DNA of 64,000 bases, taken from the NCBI RefSeq assembly GCF_900302465.1, contig NZ_OMOR01000001.1, positions 3,070,729-3,134,728 of the forward strand, given 5' to 3'. Positions within the stretch are counted from its first letter, which is position 1. Every line of letters starts with the position of its first letter. The translations under genes were made by a program, and so were the position numbers. Positions 34,963 to 55,619 of this stretch are shown here, piece after piece. Under the pieces are notes generated by a model that saw only the letters and a program-made list of their open reading frames with translations, was not told the DNA's origin and ran no database searches. The stretch is from Ascidiaceihabitans donghaensis. GTDB lineage: Bacteria; Pseudomonadota; Alphaproteobacteria; Rhodobacterales; Rhodobacteraceae.

Positions 34963-35148
34963 ACGGTTAGATTATCGCCAAGTGTGCAAATTTTCCACAG
35001 CTTTTCGTGCACCCCAAAGGACCAAACGCCGCACGGCAAGGACGCATTTTCAGGCACCTGGTTACGCGTCCAATCGCCACAACGACTTTATCCGCCAAAG
35101 TTGCTTTTTTCACCCCAGCCCCGTAGGCCGATCCCAAGGGAGACCCAA

Positions 35149-35805
35149 ATGCTTCTTCAGGCGCACCAGCTCAAAAAATCCTTTCAAAGTGTCGACGGCC
35201 CCGTCCCTGTTTTACGCGGCATAGACTTGTCAGTTGACGCAGGCGAAACCCTTGCTTTGACGGGCGAATCCGGGTCTGGAAAAAGCACACTTTTACACAT
35301 TCTGGGCGGCTTGGATGTGGTGGACAGTGGCACAATTTCACTGGAAGGCCGCGACATCACGGGGCTTGATGACACGGGTCGCGCCGCTTTGCGCCGTGAT
35401 ACGTTTGGTATTATCTTTCAACAGTTTAACTTGATCCCGTCACTGACCGTCGCCGCAAACATCGCATTCCAAGCGCGTCTGGCGGGAAAAGCGTCCGCCG
35501 AAGATCTCGCACATCTTGCCGATGCTTTGGGCTTGACCGAACAGTTAAACAAATACCCGGAGCAATTGTCGGGTGGACAACAACAAAGGGTCGCTATCGC
35601 CCGCGCTTTGGCTGTGCGTCCAAAGCTGGTGTTGGCCGATGAGCCCACTGGCAATTTGGACGAAGACACAGCCGAACAAGTGCTCGCCCAAATGTTGAAC
35701 CTTGTGGCGGACACCGGTGCGGCACTGGTCATGGTGACCCACTCGCCTACCTTGGCCAATCGCATGGGACGCAGGTTGCATTTACGTCAGGGACAGCTTG
35801 CATGA
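35149..35805 (+). CDS. ABC transporter ATP-binding protein (LolD/MacB type)
   Basis: A 218-residue ATPase using the ATG at 35149 (MLLQAHQLKKSFQSV); the open frame extends to 34930 but that part is not ABC-like. Walker A is GESGSGKST (about residues 42-50), the signature LSGGQQQRVAIARAL, Walker B LVLADEPTGNLDE, and the switch His is in VTHS. It overlaps the permease gene by 4 bp. It powers a type VII (MacB/Lol-like) mechanotransmission system rather than an importer; no binding protein is encoded nearby. Confidence 0.9.
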   Translation: MLLQAHQLKKSFQSVDGPVPVLRGIDLSVDAGETLALTGESGSGKSTLLHILGGLDVVDSGTISLEGRDITGLDDTGRAALRRDTFGIIFQQFNLIPSLTVAANIAFQARLAGKASAEDLAHLADALGLTEQLNKYPEQLSGGQQQRVAIARALAVRPKLVLADEPTGNLDEDTAEQVLAQMLNLVADTGAALVMVTHSPTLANRMGRRLHLRQGQLA

Positions 35806-38198
35806 CGGCTGCAGGCTTTCACGCGCTTTGGTCGCATTGGCGGCGTAACCCGTTGCAATTGTTCACACTTGTCGCAGGGCTTGCTTTGGCCACTGCCTTG
35901 TGGTCGGGCGTGCAAGCCGTCAACGCCGAGGCCCGCGCCAGCTACGGCGCGGCTGCTGCAACCCTAGGCGAAGGGCAATTCGATCAGCTGTTGCCGGCAC
36001 AATCGGACTCAATTGCGCAGGCCGATTACATCGCACTGCGCCGCGCAGGCTGGCAAGTGGGCCCTGTTGTGGACGGGCGGCTAGACGCAGACGGCACCCA
36101 AATCCGCATCCTTGGGATAGACCCGTTGACGGCCCCGAACGGGTTTGGCGCCGTCGGAGAGGGGCAACCCGTTGATCTGGTAGGCTTTTTGTCCAAACCC
36201 ACAGTTTTTGCAAACGCGGACACTGCTGACCTGCTTCAAAGCCTCGGCTTGCGTGTGATCGAGGATGCAGGCGTGGCCAGCGGCATGGTCATAACGGATG
36301 TATCAGTGGCCCAAGATATCCTGACACTGCCCGGACAATTAAGTCGGCTTGTGATTGCGAACCAACAACCACTGGGGGTTCCACCGCTGGCAGACGTCGT
36401 TCCCAACCTAACCCGTATTGCCGCACATTCTGGCACAGACGTCGCACGCTTGACCGACAGCTTCCATTTGAACCTGACAGCCTTTGGGTTGCTTAGTTTT
36501 GCGGTGGGCATTTTCATCGTGCACGGCACCATCGGGCTGGCGTTTGAACAAAGACGCAGCATGGTGCGGACATTGCGGGCTTTGGGCATGCCTTTGCGGC
36601 GCGTTATGGTCTTGATGGGGGTTGAGCTGATTGTGCTGGCCTTGATCGGGGGCGGTGTGGGCGTGGTCATGGGATACCTGATCGCAGCAGCTTTGCTGCC
36701 GGATGTCGCGGCGACCCTCAAAGGGTTATACGGCGCGGACGTGTCTGGCACCTTACAACTTAGACCAAGCTGGTGGATTTCGGGATTGCTGATTTCGGTT
36801 GCCGGCACTGGGGTCGCCGCGATCGGTTCTTTGATGCAGGTTGCACGCATGCCCCTGCTGGCAAGTGCGCGTCCACAGGCCTGGGTAACCGCATCTTCCG
36901 CACGGCGCATATTGCATGTGGCGGTTTCGGGCCTGTTGCTTGCTGTGGCGGTGGCTTTGGGGTTTTGGGGCAAGGGTCTGGTGTTGGGATTCGTTATGCT
37001 GGGGGCGTTGTTGATCGGCGCCGCATTGGCCCTACCCTTGATTTTGGATGTGGCTTTGCGCCTTGGGCAGGCCCGTGCCAGACATGTGATTTGGGAATGG
37101 TTTTGGGCCGACACCCGCCAACAATTGCCTGGTCTTAGCCTTGCTTTGATGGCCTTGCTGTTGGCAATGGCGGCCAACGTGGGCGTATCTACGATGGTGT
37201 CGAGCTTTCGATTGACCTTTGTAGGGTTCTTGGACCAACGCTTGGCTTCAGAGCTTTATGTCACCGCGCAGACACCCGCACAAAGTGAAGCCTTGCAAGC
37301 ATTTCTAAAGCCGCAAGTCCGTGTCATTTTGCCTGTTTTGTCCGTGCAAACCGATCTTGCCGGACTGCCTACGGATCTCTACGGCGCCCGCATCGACAGC
37401 ACCCACCGTAACAACTGGGCTTTTCTGGAGGCGCGTAGTGACGCATGGGACAGCGTCGATACGGGGCGCGGTATCATTATCAACGAACAACTGGCACGCC
37501 GCGCTGGTCTTTGGGTGGGCGATGATGTGCCATTGGGGGGCAGCCGCAGTTTGCCCGTCGTGGGCATTTACGGCGACTACGGCAATCCAATCGGGCAAGC
37601 CATCGTTCAGGAGGATCTGTTCAATGCCCTGCACCCCAATCAAATCCCCACCCGGTTCGGGCTGCGCACAGACACCCCGAACAGCGTGCGCAAAGCCTTA
37701 ATTGACGACTTTGGACTGCCAGAGGCAAACATCATTGATCAAGCGGGGATCAAAGCATTCTCGCTGTCTATATTCGAACGTACATTCACCGTAACAGGTG
37801 CGTTAAATGTACTGACATTGGCCGTTGCAGGGTTCGCGATTTTCATGAGCCTTCTTACACTGGCCTCTATGCGCGTGCCGCAGTTGGCCCCCGCTTGGGC
37901 GCTTGGCCTGACACGACGCAAACTAGGGCAACTGGAATTGACACGCGCGGCCATTCTGGCCGTTTTGACCGCAACAGCGGCCATCCCTTTGGGATTGGCA
38001 TTGGCGTGGGTGTTGTTGGCTGTTGTCAACGTCGAGGCCTTTGGATGGAAGTTGCCGATGTATGTTTTTCCCGCAGCCTACGCGAAACTATGCGGCTTTG
38101 CTTTGTTGGCAGCCATCGTCGCAGCCCTTTGGCCGGCTTTGCGATTGGCACGAACGCCTCCCACCGATCTTTTGAAGGTTTTTGCGAATGAGCGTTAA
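35802..38198 (+). CDS. FtsX-like ABC transporter permease
   Basis: A 798-residue inner-membrane protein with two FtsX/MacB modules. The first has a membrane segment near residues 15-35, a large periplasmic loop to about 215 and three membrane helices (about 220-340). The second begins near 430 with another periplasmic domain (about 470-650) and ends in three helices (about 665-785). GIFIVHGTIGLAFEQRRSMVRTLRALGMP is the coupling region. Its end overlaps the lipocalin gene by 11 bp. The layout matches AttF/AttG-type permeases fused into one chain. Confidence 0.88.
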   Translation: MTAAGFHALWSHWRRNPLQLFTLVAGLALATALWSGVQAVNAEARASYGAAAATLGEGQFDQLLPAQSDSIAQADYIALRRAGWQVGPVVDGRLDADGTQIRILGIDPLTAPNGFGAVGEGQPVDLVGFLSKPTVFANADTADLLQSLGLRVIEDAGVASGMVITDVSVAQDILTLPGQLSRLVIANQQPLGVPPLADVVPNLTRIAAHSGTDVARLTDSFHLNLTAFGLLSFAVGIFIVHGTIGLAFEQRRSMVRTLRALGMPLRRVMVLMGVELIVLALIGGGVGVVMGYLIAAALLPDVAATLKGLYGADVSGTLQLRPSWWISGLLISVAGTGVAAIGSLMQVARMPLLASARPQAWVTASSARRILHVAVSGLLLAVAVALGFWGKGLVLGFVMLGALLIGAALALPLILDVALRLGQARARHVIWEWFWADTRQQLPGLSLALMALLLAMAANVGVSTMVSSFRLTFVGFLDQRLASELYVTAQTPAQSEALQAFLKPQVRVILPVLSVQTDLAGLPTDLYGARIDSTHRNNWAFLEARSDAWDSVDTGRGIIINEQLARRAGLWVGDDVPLGGSRSLPVVGIYGDYGNPIGQAIVQEDLFNALHPNQIPTRFGLRTDTPNSVRKALIDDFGLPEANIIDQAGIKAFSLSIFERTFTVTGALNVLTLAVAGFAIFMSLLTLASMRVPQLAPAWALGLTRRKLGQLELTRAAILAVLTATAAIPLGLALAWVLLAVVNVEAFGWKLPMYVFPAAYAKLCGFALLAAIVAALWPALRLARTPPTDLLKVFANER

Positions 38199-39228
38199 GG
38201 CTTTGGTCTTTTTGTTGTGCTTGCCTGCTATGGCATGGGCCCAAGGGTTCGGAGGCTTGGGAACGCAAGCCGATGGCTTCACAACGCCCCGTCCCAACCC
38301 TGTTTTCGACTTCCCCAAAGATCATGGCCCCCACCCTGACTACCGGATTGAATGGTGGTATCTTACGGCCAATATGACGGGACCGGATGGCGCGGAATAC
38401 GGGCTACAATGGACGTTGTTCCGGTCTGCGCTTGCCCCTGAGATCGGCGTCGGATGGACTTCGCCCCAAATCTATTTCGGACATGCCGCAGTCACCACAA
38501 AGGACGCCCATTACGTGTCTGAACGCTTTGCAAGGGGCGGCATCGGACAGGCTGGCGTCACGCCCGCCCCTTTTGAAGCATGGATTGATGACTGGCATCT
38601 TAAGGGAGACGACTTTGACACGATGCAGATGCACGCCACCGGACCGGATTTCGCCTATGATGTGACACTAAACGCCCAAGGGCCGCTGGTTTTCCACGGC
38701 GATGGGGGCTTTTCTGTAAAATCGGCAAAAGGCCAGGCCAGCTACTACTATTCGCAGCCTTTCTATGACCTGAGCGGCACGCTTACCCTGCCAGACGGGC
38801 CTGTTTCGGTCACGGGCACCGCATGGTTGGACCGCGAATGGTCGTCGCAGCCTTTGGCCGACGATCAGTCCGGTTGGGACTGGTTTTCGCTGTCCTTTGA
38901 GGATGGCAACAAGCTGATGGGATTCAGATTACGCCAGACCGACGGTACGTTTTTTGCATCCGGAACGTGGATTGCGCCGGATGGCACAGCGACCGCGTTG
39001 CGCCCCGACGACTTTATCGCATCCCCCTTGGCCCTGTCCGATGTGGGGGCGCGCGACGTTCCGACGACGTGGCGCGTGCAGGTGCCCCGGTTCAATGTGG
39101 ACGTCACCACAACGGCCCTGAACCCGCAGTCATGGATGGCCGTGTCATTGCCTTATTGGGAAGGGCCTGTGACAGTGCAAGGATCACATACGGGGCGTGG
39201 CTATCTGGAAATGACCGGCTACGAATAG
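38188..39228 (+). CDS. AttH/CrtC-like lipocalin family protein
   Basis: A 346-residue secreted protein with signal peptide SVKALVFLLCLPAMAWAQG and the AttH/carotenoid 1,2-hydratase fold: DYRIEWWYLTANMTGPDG near residue 50 and GTAWLDREWSSQPLADDQSGWDWFSL near residue 215, two lipocalin-like beta-barrels. The family handles hydrophobic ligands. With the ABC ATPase and FtsX permease it forms the att-type set (AttE, AttF/G, AttH). A role in moving or modifying a lipid at the cell envelope is inferred. The ATG at 38188 is preferred over the TTG at 38182. Confidence 0.85.
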   Translation: MSVKALVFLLCLPAMAWAQGFGGLGTQADGFTTPRPNPVFDFPKDHGPHPDYRIEWWYLTANMTGPDGAEYGLQWTLFRSALAPEIGVGWTSPQIYFGHAAVTTKDAHYVSERFARGGIGQAGVTPAPFEAWIDDWHLKGDDFDTMQMHATGPDFAYDVTLNAQGPLVFHGDGGFSVKSAKGQASYYYSQPFYDLSGTLTLPDGPVSVTGTAWLDREWSSQPLADDQSGWDWFSLSFEDGNKLMGFRLRQTDGTFFASGTWIAPDGTATALRPDDFIASPLALSDVGARDVPTTWRVQVPRFNVDVTTTALNPQSWMAVSLPYWEGPVTVQGSHTGRGYLEMTGYE

Positions 39229-39230
39229 CG

Positions 39231-40910
39231 TTACTTTTCGAACAAAACGTCTTCCAAAAGCAGTGCATCCAGCCCTGATGTCATGAACATGGCCACTGCG
39301 TCTTCAACACTGTGCACGATGGGTTTGCCCATAATGTTGAAGCTGGTGTTCAAAACGACCGGCACGCCTGCCGTTTTCCCCATGGCGCGACACAGCGCGT
39401 GCATCCATGGGGCGCAGGCTTCGGTGACTGTCTGCAACCGGCCTGTTCCATCTTCGTGCACCACGGCTGGCACCTTCGCGCCCTGCCCCGCAGCCCATGG
39501 CAAGGTGAAAGACATATAGGGTGCAGGCTGCGCATGGTCGAACCATTGGCTGGCATCTTCGGCTGGAATAACCGGTGCAAACGGGCGATACGCTTCGCGG
39601 CCCTTCACAAGCATGTTGATGCGGTCTTTCATGTCCGGGACACTTGGGTCTGCCAAAATGGACCGGTTTCCCAATGCACGAGGCCCGAATTCGGCGCGGC
39701 CTCGCATGACGCCGATGATTTTGCCATCTTTTAGCAGTTGCGCCACCTTGGGCACAGACCTGTCCCCACACTCGGTGACGCAGGCCACTTTGCAATAGTC
39801 TTGTGCTTTCGTGATGGCTTCGGGGTTTGGACGTGCGCCCAAGTAGGCTGTGCCTGTGCCTTTTGGAATCTGCTTTTGCTTGGTGTCGTCCATCCAGGCC
39901 AACAGTGCTGCACCCACTGCGTTTCCATCGTCGCCGGGGGCGGATGGCACCGTGACGCTGGCGACATTGAACCGCCGCGCGATGGTCCCGTTGTAGGAGG
40001 AATTGAGCGCACACCCCCCCGTCAGCACCAGATTTTCCGGACTGTCAGACAACACAGATTCGACCACTTGGTCCGTAATACGCGCGTAGGCCGCTTGCGC
40101 AGAAGCTGCAAGATCGGCACCCTGCATGATAGGATCGTCCGCGCTGCGACCGTATGTTTGCGCCATGGCCAGCGCCTGCTTTACGATGTCGGTATCCGCA
40201 AATCGTAACCTGCCCCGATCCACAGTCACTGTTGCGCACAACGCCTCAATCAAAGCGGGAACCGGCGTGCCGAAGGCCGCAAGCCCCATCAGCTTCCATT
40301 CTTCGCCCAGGCGCCAATCAAAGCCCGCCAACAGCGTCAATTTGGAATAGAATGCACCCAATGACCCGGGCCCCCAAGACCGCCACCGGCGTTTGATCTG
40401 TCGATCGGTCATGTCGTAAACCGCAGCAGCCCCGGCTTCGCCTTCACCGTCAATTACCAGACACACCGCGTCGTCATGCGGCGTTTGGTGGCAGGCGGCA
40501 ACAGCGTGGCACAAATGGTGCTCAAAGCGTTTGATGTCCGGCATCTGCCCGTTCGCAAACCCCTGCCGCATCACGCCAGCCCCCATCGCGGATTGCGCGT
40601 TTTGGTGCACATGCCATAGCCATAAGGCATGGTCTGCTGGCATCATCAGATCGACCATATCAGGTGGCAGATCCACCTTCTGGGTTTGCCATGTACTGGC
40701 AACCACCAGCTTGTCTTTTTTTGGATCCGCACCGACAGCCTTTAAGGCTTGCGCCAGATGCGCAGGATGATCTGCAGCCACACCCCAAGCGCGCTTGTCT
40801 TGCATATAGCGTTCGGTTGCTTCTGCAAAAACCAAAGTTCCGCGTTCGTCGACAAGCGCCAACGCCGGGTCATGTCCAGTGGTGGACAGGCCCAGATACC
40901 ACGTGGTCAT
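39231..40910 (-). CDS. O-carbamoyltransferase, NodU/CmcH/TobZ family
   Basis: A 559-residue enzyme that makes carbamoyl adenylate from carbamoyl phosphate and ATP and transfers the carbamoyl group to a hydroxyl. The YrdC/Kae1-like metal-binding histidines appear as FEHHLCHAVAACHQT (about residues 128-142). LTGGCALNSSYNG and MRGRAEFGPRALGNRSILADP (about 405-425) are the NodU signature, and VLNTSFNIMGKPIVHS is the C-terminal one. It overlaps the ACP gene by 4 bp and is the last gene of a five-gene operon, so it probably carbamoylates a hydroxylated acyl product. The acceptor is unknown. Confidence 0.9.
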   Translation of the reverse strand: MTTWYLGLSTTGHDPALALVDERGTLVFAEATERYMQDKRAWGVAADHPAHLAQALKAVGADPKKDKLVVASTWQTQKVDLPPDMVDLMMPADHALWLWHVHQNAQSAMGAGVMRQGFANGQMPDIKRFEHHLCHAVAACHQTPHDDAVCLVIDGEGEAGAAAVYDMTDRQIKRRWRSWGPGSLGAFYSKLTLLAGFDWRLGEEWKLMGLAAFGTPVPALIEALCATVTVDRGRLRFADTDIVKQALAMAQTYGRSADDPIMQGADLAASAQAAYARITDQVVESVLSDSPENLVLTGGCALNSSYNGTIARRFNVASVTVPSAPGDDGNAVGAALLAWMDDTKQKQIPKGTGTAYLGARPNPEAITKAQDYCKVACVTECGDRSVPKVAQLLKDGKIIGVMRGRAEFGPRALGNRSILADPSVPDMKDRINMLVKGREAYRPFAPVIPAEDASQWFDHAQPAPYMSFTLPWAAGQGAKVPAVVHEDGTGRLQTVTEACAPWMHALCRAMGKTAGVPVVLNTSFNIMGKPIVHSVEDAVAMFMTSGLDALLLEDVLFEK

Positions 40911-41152
40911 TTGGCCGCTTTCAGCGCCAATACCGCAGTCGCAAAAGCACCCAAAGTATCATGTTCGAAAATCATGGACGGATCAATTTCAACGTCGAAT
41001 TCGTCCTCCACGTCACCGCACAACAAAACGGCGTCTATGCTTTCCAGTCCGATGTCGATCAAAACCGACTCTTCGCGGACATCTTCAAGCGGAAGATCGA
41101 TGCGTTTGGCTATTTGTTCACGCAAGTAATGCGTCAGGTTAGGATCGGACAT
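40907..41152 (-). CDS. Stand-alone acyl carrier protein
   Basis: An 81-residue four-helix carrier protein. The phosphopantetheine attachment site is the Ser in IDIGLESIDAVLL (about residue 40), where the usual DSL is ESI. Acidic helix II (DVEDEFDVEID) fits partner docking. ATG 41152 has GAGAAA 8 bases upstream and is preferred to a TTG at 41164. It lies between the double-P450 gene and the carbamoyltransferase (ATGA overlap). It is probably loaded by the fatty-acyl-AMP ligase encoded two genes upstream. It is not the housekeeping AcpP, which has DSL and a fab-operon setting. Confidence 0.9.
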   Translation of the reverse strand: MSDPNLTHYLREQIAKRIDLPLEDVREESVLIDIGLESIDAVLLCGDVEDEFDVEIDPSMIFEHDTLGAFATAVLALKAAK

Positions 41153-41211
41153 TGGGTTTCTCAATCAATAGTAGAATTGTAAGCCTATAAAATCATTAAA
41201 TAAATACGGAC

Positions 41212-43404
41212 CTACAAATCGCACTTTAAGGACTGCATTGCAACAGTTTGGGACATATCAAAATAGCGATGCCCTTGAGACGTCAATCGAATGTCGGGAA
41301 AACGTGCAAAAACGGCAGGAATTGCCCGCCTGAGCAACAAGCGCGACAAAGACGCACCAACACAATGGTGCAGCCCGTGACCAAAAGACAAATGCCCCGT
41401 TGTTTTGCCCCTGTTCACGGCGTTCAAGTGGATGCAGGCTGTGTCCTTTGCATTGAACGCCAACCCGTCAACCTGCTGGGTGTTTCGCGCATGCCGGTAG
41501 ATAAATTTGGGTGATCCGCAGGTGGACATGATTTCTTCGATCCGCGTGTTTGTCCAAGCCGGGTCCGCCACATCCTGTCGCAGATCCCACGGCAAGCTCA
41601 GGATCCAATGCAGCGCATTGCCCAAAGTATGGCTTAGGTTGAAACTGGCCCCGTACAAGACCAAAACCAACGCCGCAATATCTGCATCGTCGTATCCTTC
41701 GGGGGGATTTTGCTGCAGGTGGTCTTGCAAGGAAACGGCCCCTGTTGGGGCATCCTCGGTGCGCGCGTGGCCGGTGCTGACCAGCGCCATGGTCTCCGCA
41801 AACACCTCTTGCAGCTGCAAAATCTGGCGCATAGGCAACAAAGGCTCAAGCACGTCCTGCAAGACAGGCGCCAGTGTGTCAAAGCGGTCCAGATCGGAAG
41901 GATGCAACCCCAAAATCGGCTTGGTGATGGCCCGAAAGACAGGATTTGCAAAGTCTTCGACCAGATCGGGGGCGCTTGAGGTTTGCAAAGCGTCCAACGC
42001 CATCTGAATGCGATCATCAATAAGCCCATGCCAAACGCGCAGTCGGTTTTGGCCAAGAATCTGCATGACAGATTTGCGGGCCGCAGCGTGACGCGGGCCT
42101 GACATAAAAAACATCGCGTTTTTGGCGATATGAATAACCGGGCTTAGGTCACGCCCACTTTTGTCGTGCAATGCCTGCAAGTGGGCTTCCATTTGCGGCG
42201 GCGCAAAACCTTTGTCATCCGTGATAATGGCGCGAGCGGTCGTGTGGTCTTTGACGTTCCACAGCTTGGCCGCCGGCTTTTCACACAGCGGCATGGGGGT
42301 GCACGGCAGCGCGCGTGGCCCTTGCAACATTGGCGACACCAGAAAACTGCAGCGGTCTTTGTGCAAGATCATATCGGGAAAACGGCGGCTCAGTGCTGGC
42401 AAAGCCCGCAAGATGAACAACCGTGCAAAAGCTTCACCGGGGCATTTGTGCCGCCCGGCCCCGAAGGCTTGCGTCGGGCTACGCACCCCGTTCGGGCGGT
42501 CTTGCGACAACCAGTCTTTGCGCAACGCTAGATTGCTGGCCTGCATATCAAGGCTGATGTGTTGGTTCTGATGGACAGGACACCCGCCCACATCGCCGTC
42601 GGCATCGGACACGCGGCCTACGAAACGCGTCGACAAATAGACACTCAGCACCTGTTCCAGTTTGCGGTCTGGCCAGTCCTGCTGGCCTGCGTCTTGCCAT
42701 TCCCCTTGCCCATGCATCAACAGGCCCCATGCTGCAAACCCAAGCCCCAAACCCGCCGAATGGGCCGCCACAAACAAGCTTAGGCCAGTGTCACGCACCA
42801 TGTTTTTCTTGTCCGGCACATCACCCAAGGCGGCGGCCACGTGGCTGGACAAGGTGGCAGGGCCATCTGCAGGTGCGTCCATGTTGGGTGCAACAAGCCC
42901 TGTGTCATTCAACCAGGCATTCATTTGTCGCAATTCGCGCAGACTTAGAAATTTTTCGGTGAACTTGCGCAGGTCCGCGACCGCGTTCAGCATTTCGGTC
43001 TGACCTTTGGGATGCGGATCAAATCCGATGATTGGCAAAATCACATCGCAAAACAGAGGGTCCACAAAATCGCGCATCAGGTCTGCATCTTGAACCTGTG
43101 CCAAGGCATCCAATCGCACCGCAATCGCGGCGTCCATCATGGGCACCCAAGCTTCCAGCGCTTTTTCAGAAAAGACAGAGGCGATCATACGCCGCGATTG
43201 CAGATGTGTTTCGTCATTTTGGTAAATCAACGAATGCTGTGCAAAACGACGGACGGCGGACAAATCATGACCCGATGCCGCTTCGATCTGTTCCAGATAT
43301 CCCTGCAACGCAAAAATCGAAAAGTCTTTACCACGTAAAATCCGGTCCACATCCTGCGGGTCGGAAAATGTCAGCGTGGGCAATTTGTTCAAGCTTCGGG
43401 TCAT
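41212..43404 (-). CDS. Tandem (double) cytochrome P450-like protein
   Basis: A 730-residue protein made of two complete P450-like domains (about residues 1-370 and 375-730) that are homologous to each other. Each keeps the heme-thiolate loop: FGAGRHKCPG (Cys about 321) and FGHGLHHCVG (Cys about 681). Each also has the C-helix HxxxR (HLQSR near 68, HAAAR near 440). The K-helix ExxR is lost in both (QVLS near 248, EIMS near 622). The I-helix AGxET/T is replaced by AAHSAG and GASFNL. There is no membrane anchor. The ATG at 43404 overlaps the ligase stop (ATGA). It probably acts on an ACP-bound acyl chain, perhaps not as a normal monooxygenase. Confidence 0.85.
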   Translation of the reverse strand: MTRSLNKLPTLTFSDPQDVDRILRGKDFSIFALQGYLEQIEAASGHDLSAVRRFAQHSLIYQNDETHLQSRRMIASVFSEKALEAWVPMMDAAIAVRLDALAQVQDADLMRDFVDPLFCDVILPIIGFDPHPKGQTEMLNAVADLRKFTEKFLSLRELRQMNAWLNDTGLVAPNMDAPADGPATLSSHVAAALGDVPDKKNMVRDTGLSLFVAAHSAGLGLGFAAWGLLMHGQGEWQDAGQQDWPDRKLEQVLSVYLSTRFVGRVSDADGDVGGCPVHQNQHISLDMQASNLALRKDWLSQDRPNGVRSPTQAFGAGRHKCPGEAFARLFILRALPALSRRFPDMILHKDRCSFLVSPMLQGPRALPCTPMPLCEKPAAKLWNVKDHTTARAIITDDKGFAPPQMEAHLQALHDKSGRDLSPVIHIAKNAMFFMSGPRHAAARKSVMQILGQNRLRVWHGLIDDRIQMALDALQTSSAPDLVEDFANPVFRAITKPILGLHPSDLDRFDTLAPVLQDVLEPLLPMRQILQLQEVFAETMALVSTGHARTEDAPTGAVSLQDHLQQNPPEGYDDADIAALVLVLYGASFNLSHTLGNALHWILSLPWDLRQDVADPAWTNTRIEEIMSTCGSPKFIYRHARNTQQVDGLAFNAKDTACIHLNAVNRGKTTGHLSFGHGLHHCVGASLSRLLLRRAIPAVFARFPDIRLTSQGHRYFDMSQTVAMQSLKCDL

Positions 43405-45083
43405 GGTGTCTCTGGTGTCGACTTTGGGCCAAGGCCTGCGTGCATTTCGCCTTGTTGGTAGGTTCTGGCACATATTCTGCGTCGAACTTTGCCGCTGCTG
43501 GTTTTTTCTAAAGTGCCGCGCGGCAAAAAGCGAATGTCTTTTAGCTGAACCCCGAAGGCGCCGCGCACCGCACGTGTGATGGCGCGGCGCACTGTGTCTG
43601 CGCCGTCAAAATCACGCGCCTTTTCGGTCACTTCGATCAGCAATGCCGCGTCGCTGGGAACAGATGGGTCTGGCGCAAAGGCCGCAGCGGCCAGTTTGTT
43701 CAGACGCCCGTCCATGGACGCTGCCAACCACTCAACTTCGGTGGCGGCCACATTGCGTCCGTGCACAATCAGCATGTCTTTCAAACGCCCCGTCACAAAC
43801 AGGTCATCTCCCTCGATCACGCCCAGATCTCCGGTGCGCAACCACGTTTTGGCATCTTTGGTCACAAAACGATCAGCCGTTTCCTGCGGCGCATTCAGAT
43901 AACCGCCAGTGCAGCTTGGCCCATGCACCCAAATCTCGCCTTCAACGCCATCACGACAAAGCTGCCCGTCGTCTGACATGATACCAATGCAATGGCGGGT
44001 CTGCGGCGTCAGGCGACAAGGCGCCAACGTGTTGTCGTGCGGCGCATCATGATCAGGTTGCGCCCCAGCGACAAACAATGCGTTTTCCGCCATCCCGTAG
44101 CAGGCAAAGCTTGCACCTTTCGGCAATCCATATGCCTCAAAACGGTCTTGAAAGGCGGGCAACAAATCGGCAGGCACAGGTTCTGCACCACAAAAGGCTT
44201 GCTTCAACGAAGAAAGGTCCAATGCCGCACAGTCTTCTGGCGCAATCCGTTTCAGGCATTCGGCATAGATAAACGCAGGCCCCCCCGTGATCGTACCCTT
44301 GAAATCCTGCACAGCCTGCAGCCACGTCAACGGTTTGCGAATGACATCAAACGGGCTGAGTTGAACGCTCGATCCACCAAAAAGGATCGGGTACAGCAAA
44401 CATCCCATAAGCCCCATGTCATGGTAGTGTGGCATCCAATTCACCACGACGGTATCGCGCCCCAACCCCCATGTTTGCGCCACAAGGGCCGCATTGGCGA
44501 TAATGTTTGCGCCACTCATTTCCACACCTTTGGGCATGTGTGTCGAGCCGGATGTATATTGCAGCAGTACGGTAGAGGGCGCCACGGAAACATCCAGCGA
44601 AGGCACATCAGACGCTGCCAAGAGGGTCCCGTCAGCGTTATAGATTGGGCATTGAACCACATCATTGTCCGTAAGGCTGCGCAGTAATCCAGCCGCGCTT
44701 TTCGTCTGAGTGATCACGGCTCGTGCTCCGCAATCGCGCACAATATGCGGCAGACGCGGATCACCTGCTTTGGCGGGTGGCATCGCGGATACAATGATGC
44801 CCTCAAGAAGTCCCGCAAGTACAGCCGTTACAAACCCCAAGCCATGTGGCATCGCCAAGGCCAAAACATAGCGACCCGGTCCAAACGACTTGCGCCAGAT
44901 CCGTGCCTGTTGTTCCGCAGCCTCAAGCAGCGCCTGCCCACTTATTTCGGTGGCTTGCATGCCTCCCGAGCGGTGCAAAAACGTCATGATTGTCTGATTT
45001 TTGCGGTCCAATAAACGGTCGCGCAACATGTCCGCCAAGGATGGGTCGCGGGTTGTGTCAGACACGCTTTTGACCCAGTCCAT
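43401..45083 (-). CDS. Fatty-acyl-AMP ligase (FAAL-like)
   Basis: A 560-residue ANL-superfamily enzyme. The P-loop is LLQYTSGSTHMPKGVEMS (about residue 175), followed by the FAAL-type VVNWMPHYHDMGLMGCLLYPI. The hinge is TGRLKDMLIVHGRNV, and the catalytic Lys lies in LEKTSSGKVRRR (about 530). FAALs activate a fatty acid as acyl-adenylate and load it on a carrier protein instead of CoA; the ACP in the same operon is the obvious acceptor. ATG 45083 (MDWVKSV) is preferred, overlapping the upstream gene by 26 bp. A FACL making acyl-CoA cannot be fully excluded. Confidence 0.87.
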   Translation of the reverse strand: MDWVKSVSDTTRDPSLADMLRDRLLDRKNQTIMTFLHRSGGMQATEISGQALLEAAEQQARIWRKSFGPGRYVLALAMPHGLGFVTAVLAGLLEGIIVSAMPPAKAGDPRLPHIVRDCGARAVITQTKSAAGLLRSLTDNDVVQCPIYNADGTLLAASDVPSLDVSVAPSTVLLQYTSGSTHMPKGVEMSGANIIANAALVAQTWGLGRDTVVVNWMPHYHDMGLMGCLLYPILFGGSSVQLSPFDVIRKPLTWLQAVQDFKGTITGGPAFIYAECLKRIAPEDCAALDLSSLKQAFCGAEPVPADLLPAFQDRFEAYGLPKGASFACYGMAENALFVAGAQPDHDAPHDNTLAPCRLTPQTRHCIGIMSDDGQLCRDGVEGEIWVHGPSCTGGYLNAPQETADRFVTKDAKTWLRTGDLGVIEGDDLFVTGRLKDMLIVHGRNVAATEVEWLAASMDGRLNKLAAAAFAPDPSVPSDAALLIEVTEKARDFDGADTVRRAITRAVRGAFGVQLKDIRFLPRGTLEKTSSGKVRRRICARTYQQGEMHAGLGPKSTPETP

Positions 45084-47256
45084 TGTACACAAGATGTTGC
45101 CACATCGGCGCACTCAGATCCTGATTTTCAGGCCCACTGCACATAACCCGCGTCACACGCGCCAAGTAGTCAGCCGCCCAGATATTGGCCGCGTCCTGAA
45201 ACGGCATATCCTTTGGGGGGACGTCCATCTCTTCAATCTCGAATGTGATCCGGCCGTCACGCCACAACGGTTGCACCCAGATCATCGGAACACCAAACGC
45301 ATGTGCAAGCTTTAAGGGCGTGGTCGAAATCGTGACAGGAACGTCAAACACCGTGCCCGTAGCCCCCTTGCCGCTGCGCCCGCCGCTTTGCCACAACGTA
45401 GGGGAATCCACCGCCATGCTGATGGTTTTTCCAGCAGCCAGCGCCTGCACCAAAGCCTTCGCCGCGTTTTGCGGGTTATATCCAACAGTGATCAGCCTAT
45501 CCTTTTGGCGATCATCCACTGCATGGGTGCGCAAATAGGCCAATTCACGCCCCGCCAAGAGGCCCTCGTCGAGCGCACATGACACCGACGGCCCACCATG
45601 ACTGGACATCAAGATCAAAGGCGCTGTGGTCTGGCTATGAACGCCCAAAGCCGATCGATCAGGAAAATCTGTAAATTCCGCGATGTCCTGCGCCCGCGGC
45701 GCAATATGAGACACCCGCCGCGTGTTCGCTGTCGCCATACGCGCAAGACGTTGCCACGTGCGAAAACCCATGTCGGTATGATCGGATACCGCCCATGCCG
45801 CGTTCACAGCCAGTGGTACCGGCAATCCACTGGCCTTTTGGTCAAGGCGTGCGCCGATAGCTGCCATAGACTGAATATCGGACGGGTCGCCCTTTTGCAG
45901 AACCGGCAACGTGTGTGCGTTCTGTTCCGGGCAGCCAAAACTACGCTTCGTCATGGTTTCGACTGTGCGAAACAGATCCAGATGCACACCGCTTTCAAAG
46001 GCGTTTTGCGCCCATGGCATACACACTTCAAACGCATCATTGGCAGCGCCGAATTGCAGCAGCGTCTCAACCAGTTCCGGTTCAAACTGTGTTTTGCCCA
46101 GCCCAACCAATTCGGCCTGAACACGGTGCGCCTGGTCCAGCTTTTCGATGCGCATATAGCTGCGCATAAGTTTAACCCCGAAAGCCATTTTTCGGGCGGA
46201 TTGCAGTCCGAACAAATGTTCGAGCGTAGAAATGCTTTCAGCGCTTCGCCCTTCGATCGTGTCGATCGTCGCACGTAACGACAAAGCGTCCAGCGAATTG
46301 GGCACTTGTTCCAAAACACGGGTCAGCGCAGCACGACAGGCTCTGAAATCCAACAGTTTGTAGTAACACCGCGCAATCTTCATGGATCGCATACGATTTT
46401 GACCGGCATTGGCATCAGCCAGTTTGAACTGGCGCAATGCACCGCGCCAGTCCTCTTTGATGTATAGTAGATCACCAAGATCCAAATGCGTCTGGAACGA
46501 CGATGCGCCATCGTCCTCACCCGACAAAAGTTGCCCCATACGCGCATTGATCCGCGCATACGCGGCGCTGTTCGGGCGCCCGGACAATGCATCCAGATTC
46601 AATTGAATTTGCAAGGCCTGCAGCGTAGGCAAACTGCGTTGCAGCAATGTGTTGGCCGTGTTCAGATCATTTACGGACACCGCAAGCTGGGCACGCTGCA
46701 CAAGGAAAACATGATCTTCAGGTTCATTTTGAAGGACCGCATCCAAAAGCGATGCAGCTTCTTTATGGCGCAGGTTTTTCGCCAGCACATCGCAGTGCAC
46801 TGTCAAAATTCCGCGATCCTGCGGCCATGTTGCATAGGCGGATTGCGACAACCGCAGCGCTTTGGCAACATCCCCTTGCGCCAAAGTAAGCTTGATCTTG
46901 GCGATTGCCATGTCGCTGCTGCTGTCGTCCACCAACAGCGCGTTTGCGTCGTCGAAATCACCCAGTACCCGCGCCGTTTCTATCAACAACTGCCGCGCCT
47001 GCCGATCGTCGCTGTGGGTTTGAACATGCTTGCTTAGGACTGCTTTGGCATCTGTCAGGGACATCATCATGCGTAGGATTTGTGCCCGCATGACCATGGG
47101 GCTGGCGTTGTGGACATCGTCTTCGGAAAGCGCATCCAAAAGGGCCAGGGCATGGTTCAACGCCCGCCCCTTTCGTGCCATCCTGATGTCTTTCAAGGTC
47201 ACCGATTTCGGTCCCGTCGACGCAACCTGCGCATTCAATACCCCTGTCTCAGGCAT
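45058..47256 (-). CDS. TPR protein fused to an LpxL/HtrB-like acyltransferase domain
   Basis: A 732-residue protein and first gene of the operon. Residues of about 20-440 are helical repeats of TPR type (LLDAVLQNEPEDHVFLVQRAQ, LDLGDLLYIKEDWRGALRQF, ALTRVLEQVPNSLDALSLRA). The C-terminal 230 residues resemble lysophospholipid acyltransferases of the lipid A (LpxL) class: LILMSSHGGPSV, KTISMAVDSP, FDVPVTISTTPLKLAHAFGVPMI, RDGRITFEIEEM, ending APMWQHL. The active-site His is present, but the expected Hx4D/E acid is Val. No signal peptide is visible. ATG 47256 is preferred; another at 47286 is in AT-rich, promoter-like DNA. Confidence 0.6.
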   Translation of the reverse strand: MPETGVLNAQVASTGPKSVTLKDIRMARKGRALNHALALLDALSEDDVHNASPMVMRAQILRMMMSLTDAKAVLSKHVQTHSDDRQARQLLIETARVLGDFDDANALLVDDSSSDMAIAKIKLTLAQGDVAKALRLSQSAYATWPQDRGILTVHCDVLAKNLRHKEAASLLDAVLQNEPEDHVFLVQRAQLAVSVNDLNTANTLLQRSLPTLQALQIQLNLDALSGRPNSAAYARINARMGQLLSGEDDGASSFQTHLDLGDLLYIKEDWRGALRQFKLADANAGQNRMRSMKIARCYYKLLDFRACRAALTRVLEQVPNSLDALSLRATIDTIEGRSAESISTLEHLFGLQSARKMAFGVKLMRSYMRIEKLDQAHRVQAELVGLGKTQFEPELVETLLQFGAANDAFEVCMPWAQNAFESGVHLDLFRTVETMTKRSFGCPEQNAHTLPVLQKGDPSDIQSMAAIGARLDQKASGLPVPLAVNAAWAVSDHTDMGFRTWQRLARMATANTRRVSHIAPRAQDIAEFTDFPDRSALGVHSQTTAPLILMSSHGGPSVSCALDEGLLAGRELAYLRTHAVDDRQKDRLITVGYNPQNAAKALVQALAAGKTISMAVDSPTLWQSGGRSGKGATGTVFDVPVTISTTPLKLAHAFGVPMIWVQPLWRDGRITFEIEEMDVPPKDMPFQDAANIWAADYLARVTRVMCSGPENQDLSAPMWQHLVYNGLGQKRV

Positions 47257-47440
47257 GAGACATAATCTATTTATATAAAAAAACATTACAATGATCGCCC
47301 AAGTCGTAAGCCGTGTAAATCAACGCAGCTGGGTCAATCATTGCAGTCGTACCTAGAGGTTTCAATGGGATTTTGGATTTAGGCCAGTTTACGACGCCCA
47401 TCTCAACCTAGAGTTCCGCAAAACAGGCTTTCCCCTTAAA
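47257..47440. other. Promoter region of the acyl/P450/carbamoyl operon
   Basis: About 180 bp between the flavoenzyme stop and the TPR-acyltransferase start. The part next to the gene is AT-rich (complement of TTATATAAAA at 47271-47280), consistent with a minus-strand promoter close to the start. I see no clear operator or terminator. Confidence 0.35.
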
Positions 47441-49486
47441 TCAGAGGTCTTTCATCAACCTGAGCGCGTCATAAATTGCCGCGTGGGTGTTGCGTGCACT
47501 GACAGCATCACCGATGCGGAACAGTTGAAATTGCCCTTCAGTGTTGCGCAAAACCGCTTGCGGGCGCCCTGCGATCAAAGCACTTTGATCAACTTCGCCC
47601 AAGTTCACGCTAAGCGGTTTCAAATCGTAATATACGTCATCCAGTGGCAGGGTTCCGTAATTCACCACCACTTGGTCGTAGTGTTTGACCGTTTTTAAGT
47701 CGCTGTAATCCGTTCCGATGGTCGCATCCAAACGATTGCCGACCCGCGCCACCTGCAGCAAACGTTGCGCGACAGTGAATGTCACATCCTTGTCTTGTAG
47801 ACTGCGCATATACGGCACCAGGTTCATCGCCATAACTTCTGGGGCGATGCTGCGGTCGGGTGTCATGACTTCGACGTGCGATCCAGCCATGGCCGCAATT
47901 TCCGCGGCTTGCAGACCGGAATGGTCTCCGCTTTCGTCATAGATCAGCACCGATGCGGCGGGCTTTACGTCGCCCGAAATGATATCCCAAGCGGACACCA
48001 CATGCGCAGCTTCTTTGCCTTGTTCCAACAGTTCGAGATTTGGCAACCCGCCGGTTGCAACGACAACAAGGTCCGGGTTCTGGGCCTGCACATCCGCAGC
48101 CTCTGCCCATGTGTTGAAATGAAACACAACGTCACGCGCAGCGCATTGCGCCATGCGCCAGTCAATGATGCCGATCATCTCGCGTCTGCGCGGGCTTTGT
48201 GCGGTCAGTCGGATCTGACCACCCGGCTCTGGTTGCGCTTCAAAGACGACAACTTCGTGACCGCGTTCTGCCGCCACGCGGGCCGCCTCTAAGCCGCCCG
48301 GCCCCGCACCTACAACGACCACTTTCTTGCTTTTGTCTGCCTTGGCAATCACATGCGGCATCGTCAGCTCGCGCCCTGTCGCCGGATTGTGAATGCACAA
48401 CGCTTCGCCTGCTTGATAAATCCGGTCCAAGCAATAGGTCGCGCCCACGCAAGGTCGAATGTCGTCCTCGCGACCTTCGGTGATTTTTTGCACAATATGC
48501 GGGTCCGCCATGTGGGCGCGGGTCATACCCACCATATCCAACAGGCCTGCATCAATGGCATGGCGCGCTGTGGCGACATCGGGAATACGCGCGGCATGAA
48601 ACGTCGGCATTCCGGTTTCCTTGCGGACGGCACCGGCAAAATCCAGATGCGGCGCGGATGGCATGCCTTGAACAGGAATAACATCTGTCATGGCCGGGTC
48701 CGTATGAATGCGCCCTTTAATGACATTCAAGAAATCCATTTGCCCTGTGTCCGCCAGGATTTTCGAGATTTGCAACCCTTCTTGGGCGGTTATCCCACCG
48801 GCTTGTGCCTCGTCTGCGGTATAGCGTGCACCGATGATAAAATCATCACCAACGCGTTTACGGATAGCGTCCAGCACGTCCAACGGAAACCGCATGCGGC
48901 TTTCCAAAGTTTGCCCGCCATATGGTCCGTCCAGATCATTGGTCAGCGGCGACCAAAACTGGTCCAGCAAGTGGCCATAGACCTGCAGTTCAATCCCATC
49001 CATGCCACCGGCTTTCATACGTTCCGCAGCGTCCGCAAAATCGGAAATGACGCGGGCGATGTCCCAGTCTTCGACCAACTTGGGAAACGCGCGATGGGCA
49101 GGTTCGCGGTGCTTTGACGATGAAATTGACGGCAACCAATCGCCTTTGTTCCACGTCGTGCGGCGGCCCAAATGGGTCAGTTGGATCATCACCGCACAGC
49201 CATGTTCGTGACATCGATCTGTCAACTGCCTGATCCATGGCACAACTTCATCTTTGTAGGCCAGCACGTTGTTGAACACCGGTGGGCTGTCTTTTGACAC
49301 CGCCGCCGAACCTGCCGTCATCGCCAAAGCCACACCCGCCTTTGCGCGTTCCGCATGATAGGCGGCGTAGCGTTCTTTGGGCATGCCGTCTTCAGGGTAT
49401 GCCGGTTCGTGACTGGTGGTCATGATCCGGTTTTTAAGGGTGAGATGTTTTAACTGATAGGGCTGCAACAAGGGGTCTTGCGACAT
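47441..49486 (-). CDS. TMADH/FadH-type NADH:flavin oxidoreductase
   Basis: A 681-residue modular flavoenzyme: an old-yellow-enzyme TIM barrel with FMN (about residues 1-350), a cluster-binding linker, then FAD and NAD(P) Rossmann domains (VVVVGAGPGGLEAARVAAERG near 395). Relatives include trimethylamine, histamine and dimethylglycine dehydrogenases, stachydrine demethylase and dienoyl-CoA reductase. The linker reads RPCVGATYCLDRIY...LCIHN, where one Cys of the usual CxxCxxC...C 4Fe-4S set is Ala. The ATG at 49486 has AAGGAC upstream. It is the last gene of the TTT operon, 86 bp after the CoA ligase gene. Substrate unknown. Confidence 0.85.
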   Translation of the reverse strand: MSQDPLLQPYQLKHLTLKNRIMTTSHEPAYPEDGMPKERYAAYHAERAKAGVALAMTAGSAAVSKDSPPVFNNVLAYKDEVVPWIRQLTDRCHEHGCAVMIQLTHLGRRTTWNKGDWLPSISSSKHREPAHRAFPKLVEDWDIARVISDFADAAERMKAGGMDGIELQVYGHLLDQFWSPLTNDLDGPYGGQTLESRMRFPLDVLDAIRKRVGDDFIIGARYTADEAQAGGITAQEGLQISKILADTGQMDFLNVIKGRIHTDPAMTDVIPVQGMPSAPHLDFAGAVRKETGMPTFHAARIPDVATARHAIDAGLLDMVGMTRAHMADPHIVQKITEGREDDIRPCVGATYCLDRIYQAGEALCIHNPATGRELTMPHVIAKADKSKKVVVVGAGPGGLEAARVAAERGHEVVVFEAQPEPGGQIRLTAQSPRRREMIGIIDWRMAQCAARDVVFHFNTWAEAADVQAQNPDLVVVATGGLPNLELLEQGKEAAHVVSAWDIISGDVKPAASVLIYDESGDHSGLQAAEIAAMAGSHVEVMTPDRSIAPEVMAMNLVPYMRSLQDKDVTFTVAQRLLQVARVGNRLDATIGTDYSDLKTVKHYDQVVVNYGTLPLDDVYYDLKPLSVNLGEVDQSALIAGRPQAVLRNTEGQFQLFRIGDAVSARNTHAAIYDALRLMKDL

Positions 49487-49572
49487 GGGCTGTCCTTGGA
49501 AATGTGATCGTTCCCAAAATTGTGTCGTTGACCAACGCGTACAACAAGTCCCCAAACCGACAAAAGCGAACC

Positions 49573-51072
49573 TCAGCCAGTCGCTTCCGTCATGTCCAGC
49601 AACTTGAGACGCTGGATTTTCCCCGATGGCCCCTTCGGCAACTCGGGCAAAAAGTGGATGTAATCAGGTGCTTTGAATTTGCCGACACGCTCCACGCATA
49701 AAGCAATCAGTTGTCCGTCGGACAACCCTGACCCGTCACGCACACGCACAGCCGCTTCCACCCGCTCACCGTAGGTCTTGCAGGGTCGGGCAAAGGCCGC
49801 GGCCTCTATCACATCGCCATGTGCATAAAGCGCTTCGTCAATTTCGCGGGGCGCTATGTTTTCGCCGCCCTTGATGATCAGTTCCTTTAGCCTGCCCGTC
49901 ACAAACAGGTATCCGTCCGCGTCTTTACGGCCCAAATCCCCGGTGCGCAGCCACTGACCTGCAAAGGTGGCTTTGGTGGCGTCCGGATTTTTGAGGTATT
50001 CCAACATCACATTTGGCCCGCGCACCACGATCTCTCCCTCAACGTCGGGGGCGCATGGCGTCATATCGCTGGCAAACACGTCAACTGCGTTCCCATAGGC
50101 CAGACCGGGCGACCCGATCTTGCGTGTGCCAGGGGGCAATGGATTGGACAATATTTGCGCTGCTGTTTCGGTAAGCCCCATTGTCTCGACAATAGGCACA
50201 TCAAAACGCGTCTCAAAGGCAGTTTGCACGTCGGGTGCCAACGCAGATGACGCAGACCGCCCAAACCGCAGACGCCCTTTTGTGTCCGCGTCGGGATCAC
50301 TTTCACCGTGTAACAAGTGCGAAATGATTGTAGGCACAACAGAGAACCAGTTGGCCTTGGTATCGCGCACCTGATCCCAGAAGCGCCCAGCCGAAAACCG
50401 CGGCGCCATCGCCACCGATCCACCAGACACAAGTGGCCCGATCATCGTGACGCATAACCCGTTGATGTGATAAATCGGCAGCACACACAAAGCACGGTCT
50501 TGCGCCGTCAACGCGTGTGCCACAGCCGTCGTCCATCCCCCCGCCAAAAGGCTGGCGTGGGTGTGCACAACCCCTTTGGGGCGCCCTGTGGTTCCAGAGG
50601 TATACATCAACAACGCATGATCTTGGGGACCAATATCGTGCAATTTCGCCCCGCTGTCCGCACGGTCAACCGTCAAAGCTTCAAGCCCGTCCGGCTTCGT
50701 CTCGGCAAACAATTCCACAGCCGTGTTATGGACAAGTGCCAGCTTGGCATCGCAATGGGTCAATGCATAGGAAATCGCATCATGACCCGCGGCAAGATTT
50801 ATCATGGTGGCGCGAAATCCGCCGTACACAGCCCCAAAGAATGCCAAGACACCTTCACGACCATTGGGCTGCATCACTGCAACGCTTTCCCCTTTTGCGG
50901 TGCCGGCAGCGGTGATCGCCAAAGCCACGCGACGCGCTTGCCGGCACAAATCACGCCACGTCAGCGGACTGGCCCCGTCGGTAAACACATAAGCGATGTC
51001 ATCACTATCGCATCGCGCGTCCAGCCAGTCACGTAACGTGCCTTCAGGCGGGGTATCCTTGCGCAAAATCAT
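49573..51072 (-). CDS. AMP-forming acyl-CoA synthetase (SauT-like)
   Basis: A 499-residue ANL-superfamily CoA ligase. The P-loop is LLMYTSGTTGRPKGVVHTH (about residue 155), the ATP-binding ETMGLTETAAQILSN segment is near 290, the hinge is TGRLKELIIKGGENIAP, and the catalytic Lys lies in LPKGPSGKIQRL at the C-terminus. It overlaps the acylating aldehyde dehydrogenase gene by 4 bp. A CoA ligase beside an acylating dehydrogenase and a carboxylate transporter fits sulfoacetate:CoA ligase (SauT), producing the acyl-CoA that the dehydrogenase reduces. Specificity is inferred. Confidence 0.85.
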   Translation of the reverse strand: MILRKDTPPEGTLRDWLDARCDSDDIAYVFTDGASPLTWRDLCRQARRVALAITAAGTAKGESVAVMQPNGREGVLAFFGAVYGGFRATMINLAAGHDAISYALTHCDAKLALVHNTAVELFAETKPDGLEALTVDRADSGAKLHDIGPQDHALLMYTSGTTGRPKGVVHTHASLLAGGWTTAVAHALTAQDRALCVLPIYHINGLCVTMIGPLVSGGSVAMAPRFSAGRFWDQVRDTKANWFSVVPTIISHLLHGESDPDADTKGRLRFGRSASSALAPDVQTAFETRFDVPIVETMGLTETAAQILSNPLPPGTRKIGSPGLAYGNAVDVFASDMTPCAPDVEGEIVVRGPNVMLEYLKNPDATKATFAGQWLRTGDLGRKDADGYLFVTGRLKELIIKGGENIAPREIDEALYAHGDVIEAAAFARPCKTYGERVEAAVRVRDGSGLSDGQLIALCVERVGKFKAPDYIHFLPELPKGPSGKIQRLKLLDMTEATG

Positions 51073-52469: not shown

Positions 52470-52531
52470 GTCATGTTCCTTTTCTGGGTGTGGCAGGCCG
52501 TGTACCGCCCCGCCACCTCATGCGTAGAGTT

Positions 52532-53500: not shown

Positions 53501-53545
53501 AGTTCTTCCTCCCTAAAGGTTAATTCTGCCTGCTATTCTTGCAGG

Positions 53546-55524: not shown

Positions 55525-55566
55525 CCGCCCTCCCAAGCAGAAACTTCTAGCTTTTCAACAGTAGAG

Positions 55567-55596
55567 AATGAAAATAGTATTGCAAATGTTTTCATT
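55567..55596. promoter_or_regulatory. Candidate LacI operator between tctA and lacI
   Basis: AATGAAAA (55567-55574) and TTTTCATT (55589-55596) are perfect 8-bp inverted arms around a 14-bp centre that includes TTGCAA. They lie midway between the divergent tctA and lacI starts (43 bp and 24 bp away). This is the expected site for a repressor controlling both directions. Confidence 0.6.
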
Positions 55597-55619
55597 TTTG
55601 GGTGGGAATTGAGGGTTAA

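Follow-up and report, generated by a model that had tools for sequence, protein, structure and literature searches.

Do five closely packed minus-strand genes of Ascidiaceihabitans donghaensis, which encode a TPR-LPLAT acyltransferase, a fatty-acyl-AMP ligase (FAAL)-like enzyme, a double cytochrome P450, an acyl carrier protein (ACP), and an O-carbamoyltransferase, form a single pathway, and what would such a pathway make? The genes span 39231-47256 of the analyzed stretch of 64,000 nucleotides (hereinafter referred to as the window; G000:C1:3070729-3134728), which belongs to a 4.08-Mb genome in 7 contigs. An earlier note on this DNA had read them as one unit. We found that the four genes from the ligase to the carbamoyltransferase recur as a true block, and that the fifth, the acyltransferase gene, lies outside this conserved block. 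All five open reading frames were intact and open. The tight packing described earlier was confirmed, with overlaps of 26 nt (acyltransferase/ligase), 4 nt (ligase/double P450), and 4 nt (ACP/carbamoyltransferase) and a gap of 59 nt (double P450/ACP), and Pfam and NCBIfam placed the products in the families previously named (Table 1).

The double P450 was used as search query because it was the most specific gene of the set. Full-length double P450s were found in eight genomes (G000, G187, G341, G1223, G1316, G1348, G1359, and G1374; G000 is the window's own) and on two plasmids, those of Phaeobacter sp. G2 (CP104105; from an Emiliania huxleyi culture) and Rhodobacteraceae bacterium SC52 (CP049029). 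The plasmid match H3 (25% identity, in two pieces over ~1 kb) was left out of the locus count, and L078 is known from its tblastn match alone. The order ligase, double P450, ACP, carbamoyltransferase was constant in all ten loci, window included, with double P450s 38-75% identical to the window protein across the nine others. At the nine loci for which junctions were measured (those of L057 were left out), the nearest candidate start overlapped the preceding stop at both the ligase/double P450 and the ACP/carbamoyltransferase junction. Two pairs of loci were closely alike (L012 and L057, 98-99%; L054 and L055, 94-99%), so that about eight distinct versions of the core are represented.

The gene that would complete the set was not constant. 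A TPR-LPLAT gene was present at five of the ten loci: in the window, at L008 (interrupted), at L053 (downstream of the core), and in G1316 and G1348 (~15 kb from the core on the same contig). It adjoined three of the ten cores, one of these copies being broken, and was therefore rejected as a core member. A DltB-like MBOAT gene took its place at four loci (L009, L012, L056, and L057), in each case followed by a gene for a small protein, and one locus, that of Phaeobacter sp. G2 (L011), carried an unclassified protein. LPLAT and MBOAT genes occurred together at no locus in the DNA examined, whole genomes not having been searched for further MBOATs. For the MBOATs of the three loci tested, the best NCBIfam model was DltB (8.1e-33, 8.7e-31, and 2.9e-36, all below the cut-off). 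The small protein encoded after the MBOAT was SGNH-like by eye; neither Pfam nor NCBIfam recognized it, and nothing meaningful matched it in the PDB. Thus, the earlier expectation that the families co-occur in order held for four of the genes and failed for the acyltransferase. The constancy of the core and the change of transferase support a module that tailors chains on the ACP and whose transfer enzymes can be exchanged.

A B12-radical SAM gene preceded the ligase gene in 6 of the 10 loci. Among the five genomes searched for it, it was not found in G000 or G1359 and was unlinked in G187, and it was rejected as an obligatory member. At L008, which belongs to a genome of the same genus as the window, a DDE transposase gene (DDE_Tnp_1_4) interrupts the TPR-LPLAT gene, which looks inactivated; the four core genes there remain open.

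Table 1. Positions of the operon genes and of further features, numbered within the window or the locus named
Feature	Sequence	Position	Strand	Product and matches
TPR-LPLAT acyltransferase (VexE-like)	window	45058-47256	minus	732 aa; alternative start at 47286; TPR Pfam and VexE NCBIfam matches
FAAL-like acyl-AMP ligase	window	43401-45083	minus	560 aa; Pfam AMP-binding 3.7e-49
Double cytochrome P450	window	41212-43404	minus	730 aa; Pfam p450 2.4e-13; two heme-Cys motifs, FGAGRHKCPG and FGHGLHHCVG
Acyl carrier protein	window	40907-41152	minus	81 aa; Pfam PP-binding 7.7e-14; Ser in GLESIDA
O-carbamoyltransferase	window	39231-40910	minus	559 aa; Pfam Carbam_trans_N 6.1e-26, Carbam_trans_C 3.1e-64
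Upstream block	window	47441-56684		
ABC/FtsX/CrtC trio	window	34930-39228		
Interrupted TPR-LPLAT gene	L008	1843-5804		
Apparent remnant of the module (G212)	L010	1-2100		
Second recurring set	L040	462-6745		
Second recurring set	L075	4003-9003		
Second recurring set	L076	8070-13258		
Second recurring set	L077	6568-10669		
Stand-alone ACP and single-domain P450 (second locus of G1223)	L058	8135-10805		

We put the chances at about even that the four-gene core is an ACP-based module for tailoring fatty acids and that the fifth gene encodes one of several exchangeable off-loading enzymes. From the enzyme families we infer the following course. The FAAL-like ligase would adenylate a free fatty acid to acyl-AMP and transfer the acyl group to the stand-alone ACP, made holo by a phosphopantetheinyl transferase (PPTase) encoded elsewhere in the genome. 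The double P450 would then act on the ACP-bound chain, and the carbamoyltransferase would use carbamoyl phosphate and ATP to cap a hydroxyl, supplied either by the P450 or by a pre-hydroxylated acid, with a carbamoyl group. Finally, a transferase using acyl-ACP would hand the chain to an acceptor; in the window, the VexE-like TPR-LPLAT would esterify, most likely, a sugar or nucleotide sugar and would so provide the lipid that anchors or decorates a glycan or glycolipid of the envelope. The logic of loading, tailoring, and capping proposed previously is supported, except that ordinary hydroxylation of the chain by the P450 is not established. The P450BioI-acyl-ACP structures among the matches of the P450 halves and the kinship of the carbamoyltransferase to enzymes of PKS/terpene-type clusters also speak for this logic.

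The loading step is consistent with the ligase and ACP sequences and with the overlapping genes of the core. Among 20 PDB matches of the ligase below 1e-25, seven carried the names FadD23/28/32 or fatty acyl-adenylate ligase, and another four that of acyl-CoA synthase; the four best (7r7e-g and 3kxw) bear other names, and we take them to be FAALs. The ligase was thus closest to FAALs by sequence, and it contained adenylation motifs (HYHDMG and TSSGKVRR in the window; HYHDMG, Y/HTSGST, and T[ST]SGK[VI]RR in all ten ligases). The best NCBIfam model for the ACP was Pks13 (5.8e-12, below the cut-off), and the FAAL FadD32 is reported to pass its acyl chain to the ACP of Pks13 (PMC4667280). The Ser of GLESIDA was present in 5 of 5 aligned ACP sequences. 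The single match to the PPTase family PF01648 in the genome fell outside the window, in agreement with the earlier note, which had seen no PPTase in view.

The transfer step proposed for the TPR-LPLAT gains support from its likeness to the ACP-dependent VexE. The C-terminal part of the TPR-ACYLTRANSFERASE protein matched VexE NF011721 (3.8e-15; residues 596-733 of the 742-aa form) with 55.1 bits against a cut-off of 1200 bits, and the relatives at L053 and L040 also matched VexE far below the cut-off; by sequence, the protein is of similar architecture and not a VexE orthologue. The TPR part was recognized by Pfam and the LPLAT part by Foldseek with a predicted model of residues 440-732 (medium quality; mean pLDDT 58.5), for which all 14 matches with E<=0.001 were LpxM (7.1e-7) or PatA. 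The His466/Asp532 dyad of VexE corresponds to H553/D617 of the window protein and was conserved in all eight sequences of the alignment, that of the window among them, with a His-Asp spacing of 64 residues in the window protein, 66 in VexE, and 62-66 over the eight. No acid was present at the acidic position of the HX4D/E motif in the window protein. In VexE, this acid is reported to be replaced by Tyr, H466A to abolish activity, and D532A to reduce it substantially; the enzyme is described as ACP-dependent, using 3-hydroxyacyl donors and acylating UDP-GlcNAc. The window TPR-LPLAT therefore looks like an enzyme that may use acyl-ACP and UDP-GlcNAc, and by analogy the conserved His and Asp favor a sugar or glycolipid as acceptor.

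A profile of the C-terminal part matched 9 of 361 genomes of the order. The two best matches outside the profile set, G1348 (8.9e-41) and G1316 (1.1e-39), were both core carriers, although they are of the same genus and nearly one observation. Five weaker genomes (8.3e-24 to 1.1e-11) had no double-P450 match in the draw of 390 genomes from the order, and a search of plasmids for the TPR-LPLAT gave no match. In G1316, the interval between core and TPR-LPLAT contained genes for a glycosyltransferase, a GHMP kinase, a nucleotidyltransferase, and methyltransferases (Pfam), as well as epimerase/dehydratase-like and sulfotransferase-like genes recognized by eye only; G1348 was collinear with it over ~17.8 kb, in two pieces of 93-97% DNA identity. 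This polysaccharide-type cluster also favors a sugar-type acceptor, for the window by analogy only.

TPR-LPLATs of the same family also occurred in a second recurring set (L040, L075, L076, and L077), together with a P450 and a CxxxCxxC protein; L040, L075, and L076 have a methyltransferase-like gene as well. By eye, the CxxxCxxC protein belongs to the radical SAM type, for which Pfam gave only 0.0032 to 0.15 at three loci and nothing at L075. A further gene of L040 encodes a relative of the double P450 with a single domain.

Carbam_trans_N and Carbam_trans_C matches and conserved motifs placed the last core enzyme among the O-carbamoyltransferases. It aligned with solved carbamoyltransferases (novobiocin type, GdmN, and TobZ), sharing the motifs HHLCHA, DGEGE, GRAEFGPRALGNRSILAD, and LNTSFN. 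The ten core carbamoyltransferases formed one clade (100/98), with long branches flagged. From its membership in the operon, the acceptor would be a hydroxyl of the acyl-ACP.

Several observations weigh against the tailoring module with exchangeable transferases. The FAAL-specific insertion, placed between subdomains B and C (PMC4667280), was mostly missing from the ligase, which is ~13-22 residues short and is therefore called FAAL-like: the stretch from CYGMAE to GE[IV]W was 48-54 aa in nine of the ten ligases (the motif was not found in L056), compared with 43 aa in the acyl-CoA ligase of the window and, as counted from printed alignments, 70 in 7r7f and ~67 in FadD23 8hd4. In the double P450, the Arg of ExxR, in a register set from alignments to solved P450s, was missing from both halves in all ten sequences. 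Monooxygenases carry AGx[DE]T at the I helix; domain 2 had an invariant GASFN in its place and domain 1 lacked AGx[DE]T, again in 10 of 10, so that the acid-alcohol pair was absent. Further, the best NCBIfam model for the double P450 was TIGR04515, P450_rel_GT_act, which describes the glycosyltransferase activator derived from P450s (3.0e-23, below the cut-off), so that the two halves may not hydroxylate, and no redox partner was encoded among the five genes. As for the transfer end, the protein encoded before the L011 ligase, at a locus with neither LPLAT nor MBOAT, was labeled thioesterase-like by eye and matched nothing in Pfam, NCBIfam, or PDB sequences from either possible start. The carbamoyltransferase of L056 grouped with that of L009 (100/99), unlike the L056 ligase. 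No glycan genes were seen among the neighbors of the operon that were tested in the window; on its flanks lie instead a sulfoacetate-type catabolic cluster and the ABC/FtsX/CrtC trio, which occurred without the operon in the genus-mate G780.

The losses in the double P450 are the ground for reading it as a pseudo-enzyme, which is unlikely but deserves serious weight. It would bind heme and serve the carbamoyltransferase or the ligase as scaffold or activator, much like the glycosyltransferase activators derived from P450s, and the hydroxyl would come with a fatty acid that the ligase selects in already hydroxylated form, for example as a 3-hydroxy acid. The missing ExxR and acid-alcohol pair, the GT_act model, and the lack of a redox partner all agree with this, as does the use of 3-hydroxyacyl donors by VexE. 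However, the heme-Cys loop FxxGxHxC, the His of the C helix, and the Arg that follows the K helix were kept in both halves of all ten sequences, which a pure scaffold need not do; the invariance of GASFN in domain 2 also speaks against a pseudo-enzyme. The C-helix Arg was kept except in domain 1 of L056 (Lys). With the heme residues kept and the two other motifs lost, heme binding is likely, ordinary O2 activation doubtful, and ordinary hydroxylation not established. The Foldseek matches, obtained with a poor double-P450 model (3 sequences, mean pLDDT 45), were P450s; the many P450s matched by PDB sequence and by Foldseek included the P450BioI-acyl-ACP structures and OxyB.

At a second locus of G1223 (L058), a stand-alone ACP 39% identical to the window ACP was encoded together with a single-domain P450 and a protein that by eye resembles alpha/beta-hydrolases. 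By eye, this P450 keeps the Arg at the ExxR position and has AGQTT, and it is possibly near the ancestral single-domain form.

A different acceptor would follow if the TPR-LPLAT acylated one of the ordinary lipids of the membrane, be it a lysophospholipid, an ornithine lipid, or lipid A, giving a carbamoylated membrane lipid instead of a glycan anchor. The LPLAT fold is common to LpxM and PatA, and glycan genes of the G1316 kind were missing from the tested neighborhood of the operon in the window; nevertheless, we consider this improbable, since the HX4D/E acid is missing, the VexE dyad is present, and the TPR-LPLAT architecture is that of VexE.

Somewhat less credit is given to a secreted small molecule (a carbamoylated fatty acid, ester, or signal), in which case the transferases would be release enzymes that esterify small alcohols or hydrolyze the thioester. 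Consistent with it, two of the ten loci lie on plasmids, and the carbamoyltransferase is kin to enzymes of PKS- and terpene-type clusters: its nearest plasmid relatives outside the module belong to a polyketide synthase (PKS) cluster of Eleftheria terrae (41%), a PKS locus of Nostoc (40%), and a P450-rich terpene-type cluster of Planktothrix (37%), and in the tree the module enzymes grouped with these three PKS/terpene-type cluster enzymes and not with one glycosyltransferase-cluster enzyme. The protein before the L011 ligase would also fit if its by-eye label of thioesterase-like were right; the missing library support for this label and for the SGNH-like one slightly lowers the weight of the secreted product and of the bolder reading given below. 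Against a secreted product stand the TPR-LPLAT or DltB-like MBOAT at nine of ten loci, the VexE type of the LPLAT, and the polysaccharide-type cluster embedded at two loci. A mere chance neighborhood, to which the inconstant TPR-LPLAT and the differing carbamoyltransferase tree at one locus might point, is scarcely credible and is refuted for the four-gene core, which recurs with the same order and overlaps in ten loci, nine besides the window; the two plasmid loci among them differ from the rest in having unrelated flanks.

The four-gene module is real, rare, and patchy. In a draw from the family (about one genome per genus), it was present in 4 of 394 genomes, one with an apparent remnant (G212); in draws from the order and the class, in 6 of 390 (two of which, G000 and G341, were already in the family draw) and 1 of 385 (the window's own genome). 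Scoring in these draws covered only the two best candidates of each genome. Of the 398 genomes drawn from the phylum, 24 matched the double P450 at 1e-20, at 28 places, and the match was full-length only in the window; the best other was a single-domain P450 in G851 (2.8e-40). Conservation in many Rhodobacteraceae, the support that the earlier note had looked for, is thus rejected. Within the window's genus, the module carbamoyltransferase was found in 2 of 12 genomes, 8 of the 12 being <90% complete. The remnant (L010) consists of P450, ACP, and carbamoyltransferase fragments that look broken in frame and partly deleted: those of the P450 run into ACP-like residues, and the carbamoyltransferase is in several frames and is cut off by the contig end; this assembly is 62% complete in ~250 contigs, so that the frame breaks could be assembly errors.

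The module appears to move between lineages, and its parts may differ in their histories. L056 grouped with L054 and L055 in the ligase tree (100/99), and these three grouped with L011 in the P450 tree (93/98) and, weakly, in the ACP tree (77/95). Since the L056 carbamoyltransferase grouped with that of L009 and both loci have an adjoining MBOAT, the carbamoyltransferase and the transfer end may have been exchanged as a block. A bolder reading, which we regard as rather unlikely to hold as a whole, sees here a system for acyl decoration that spreads horizontally. A single core would make an unusual carbamoylated acyl-ACP, unrelated transferases (VexE-like LPLAT, DltB-like MBOAT, or perhaps a third kind) would have adopted it in one lineage or another, and the fused heme pair lacking ExxR and the acid-alcohol pair would perform non-canonical, peroxide-type or non-oxygenase, chemistry on the ACP-bound chain.

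The logic of loading, tailoring on a carrier, and transfer is already known. In the Dlt system, the ligase DltA and the carrier DltC work with DltD and the MBOAT DltB, which draws on the carrier protein; a ligase, a stand-alone carrier, and a DltB-like MBOAT are likewise found together at L009, L012, L056, and L057. The module differs in its fatty-acid-type ligase, its tailoring genes between loading and transfer, its Gram-negative hosts, and the lack of an MBOAT in the window. The alkyne modules JamABC and TtuABC consist of a FAAL, a desaturase, and an ACP; there too, the FAAL charges an ACP of its own, whose bound chain is then the target of an oxidative enzyme, whereas the present module has a double P450 instead of a membrane desaturase, an additional carbamoyltransferase, and no PKS or nonribosomal peptide synthetase (NRPS). 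P450BioI, solved with acyl-ACP (3ejb, 3ejd, and 3eje), also acts on an ACP-bound fatty acid and is a single domain, unlike the two fused domains without ExxR. VexE, which serves the glycolipid anchor of the Vi antigen, uses ordinary 3-hydroxyacyl-ACP, while the window transferase comes with a ligase, an ACP, a double P450, and a carbamoyltransferase dedicated to it and has no capsule genes beside it. GdmN, TobZ, and the novobiocin-type enzymes belong to the same two-domain family as the module carbamoyltransferase, but their known substrates are antibiotic scaffolds and not ACP-bound acyl chains.

We know of no report of this combination of genes or of the change of transferases. In agreement with the earlier note, no pathway with FAAL, double P450, ACP, and carbamoyltransferase was found in the open-licence literature, although a description in a subscription journal is possible. 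The same literature gave nothing joining the ligase with an MBOAT and, among the titles listed on double or fused P450s, nothing like the module protein; searches for carbamoylated fatty acids and for Roseobacter with carbamoyltransferase gene clusters turned up only lipoprotein and saxitoxin work, respectively. A study of laxaphycins mentions putative carbamoyltransferases that its authors were unable to place in the gene cluster. If correct, the tailoring-module reading would add a PKS/NRPS-free route for making and attaching a modified fatty acid and tie tailoring enzymes of secondary metabolism to the assembly of envelope glycolipids. It would also provide a natural double-heme P450 minus two textbook catalytic motifs, useful for probing the capabilities of the P450 fold.

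Promoter-like and terminator-like counts showed no excess over shuffled sequences (4 vs 4.8, sd 2.0, and 13 vs 11.4, sd 3.5, respectively). The operon is flanked by the trio and by a sulfoacetate-type catabolic cluster. The trio (ABC ATPase, FtsX permease, and CrtC-type lipocalin) is convergent with the operon and is present in G187 too. It was rejected as a dedicated exporter because of its presence without the module in G780, which fits the expectation for an accessory island. The upstream block resembles sulfoacetate catabolism and contains genes for a SauS-type dehydrogenase (above the cut-off), an acyl-CoA ligase, an OYE-like reductase, a TctA/TctC transporter, and a LacI-type regulator.

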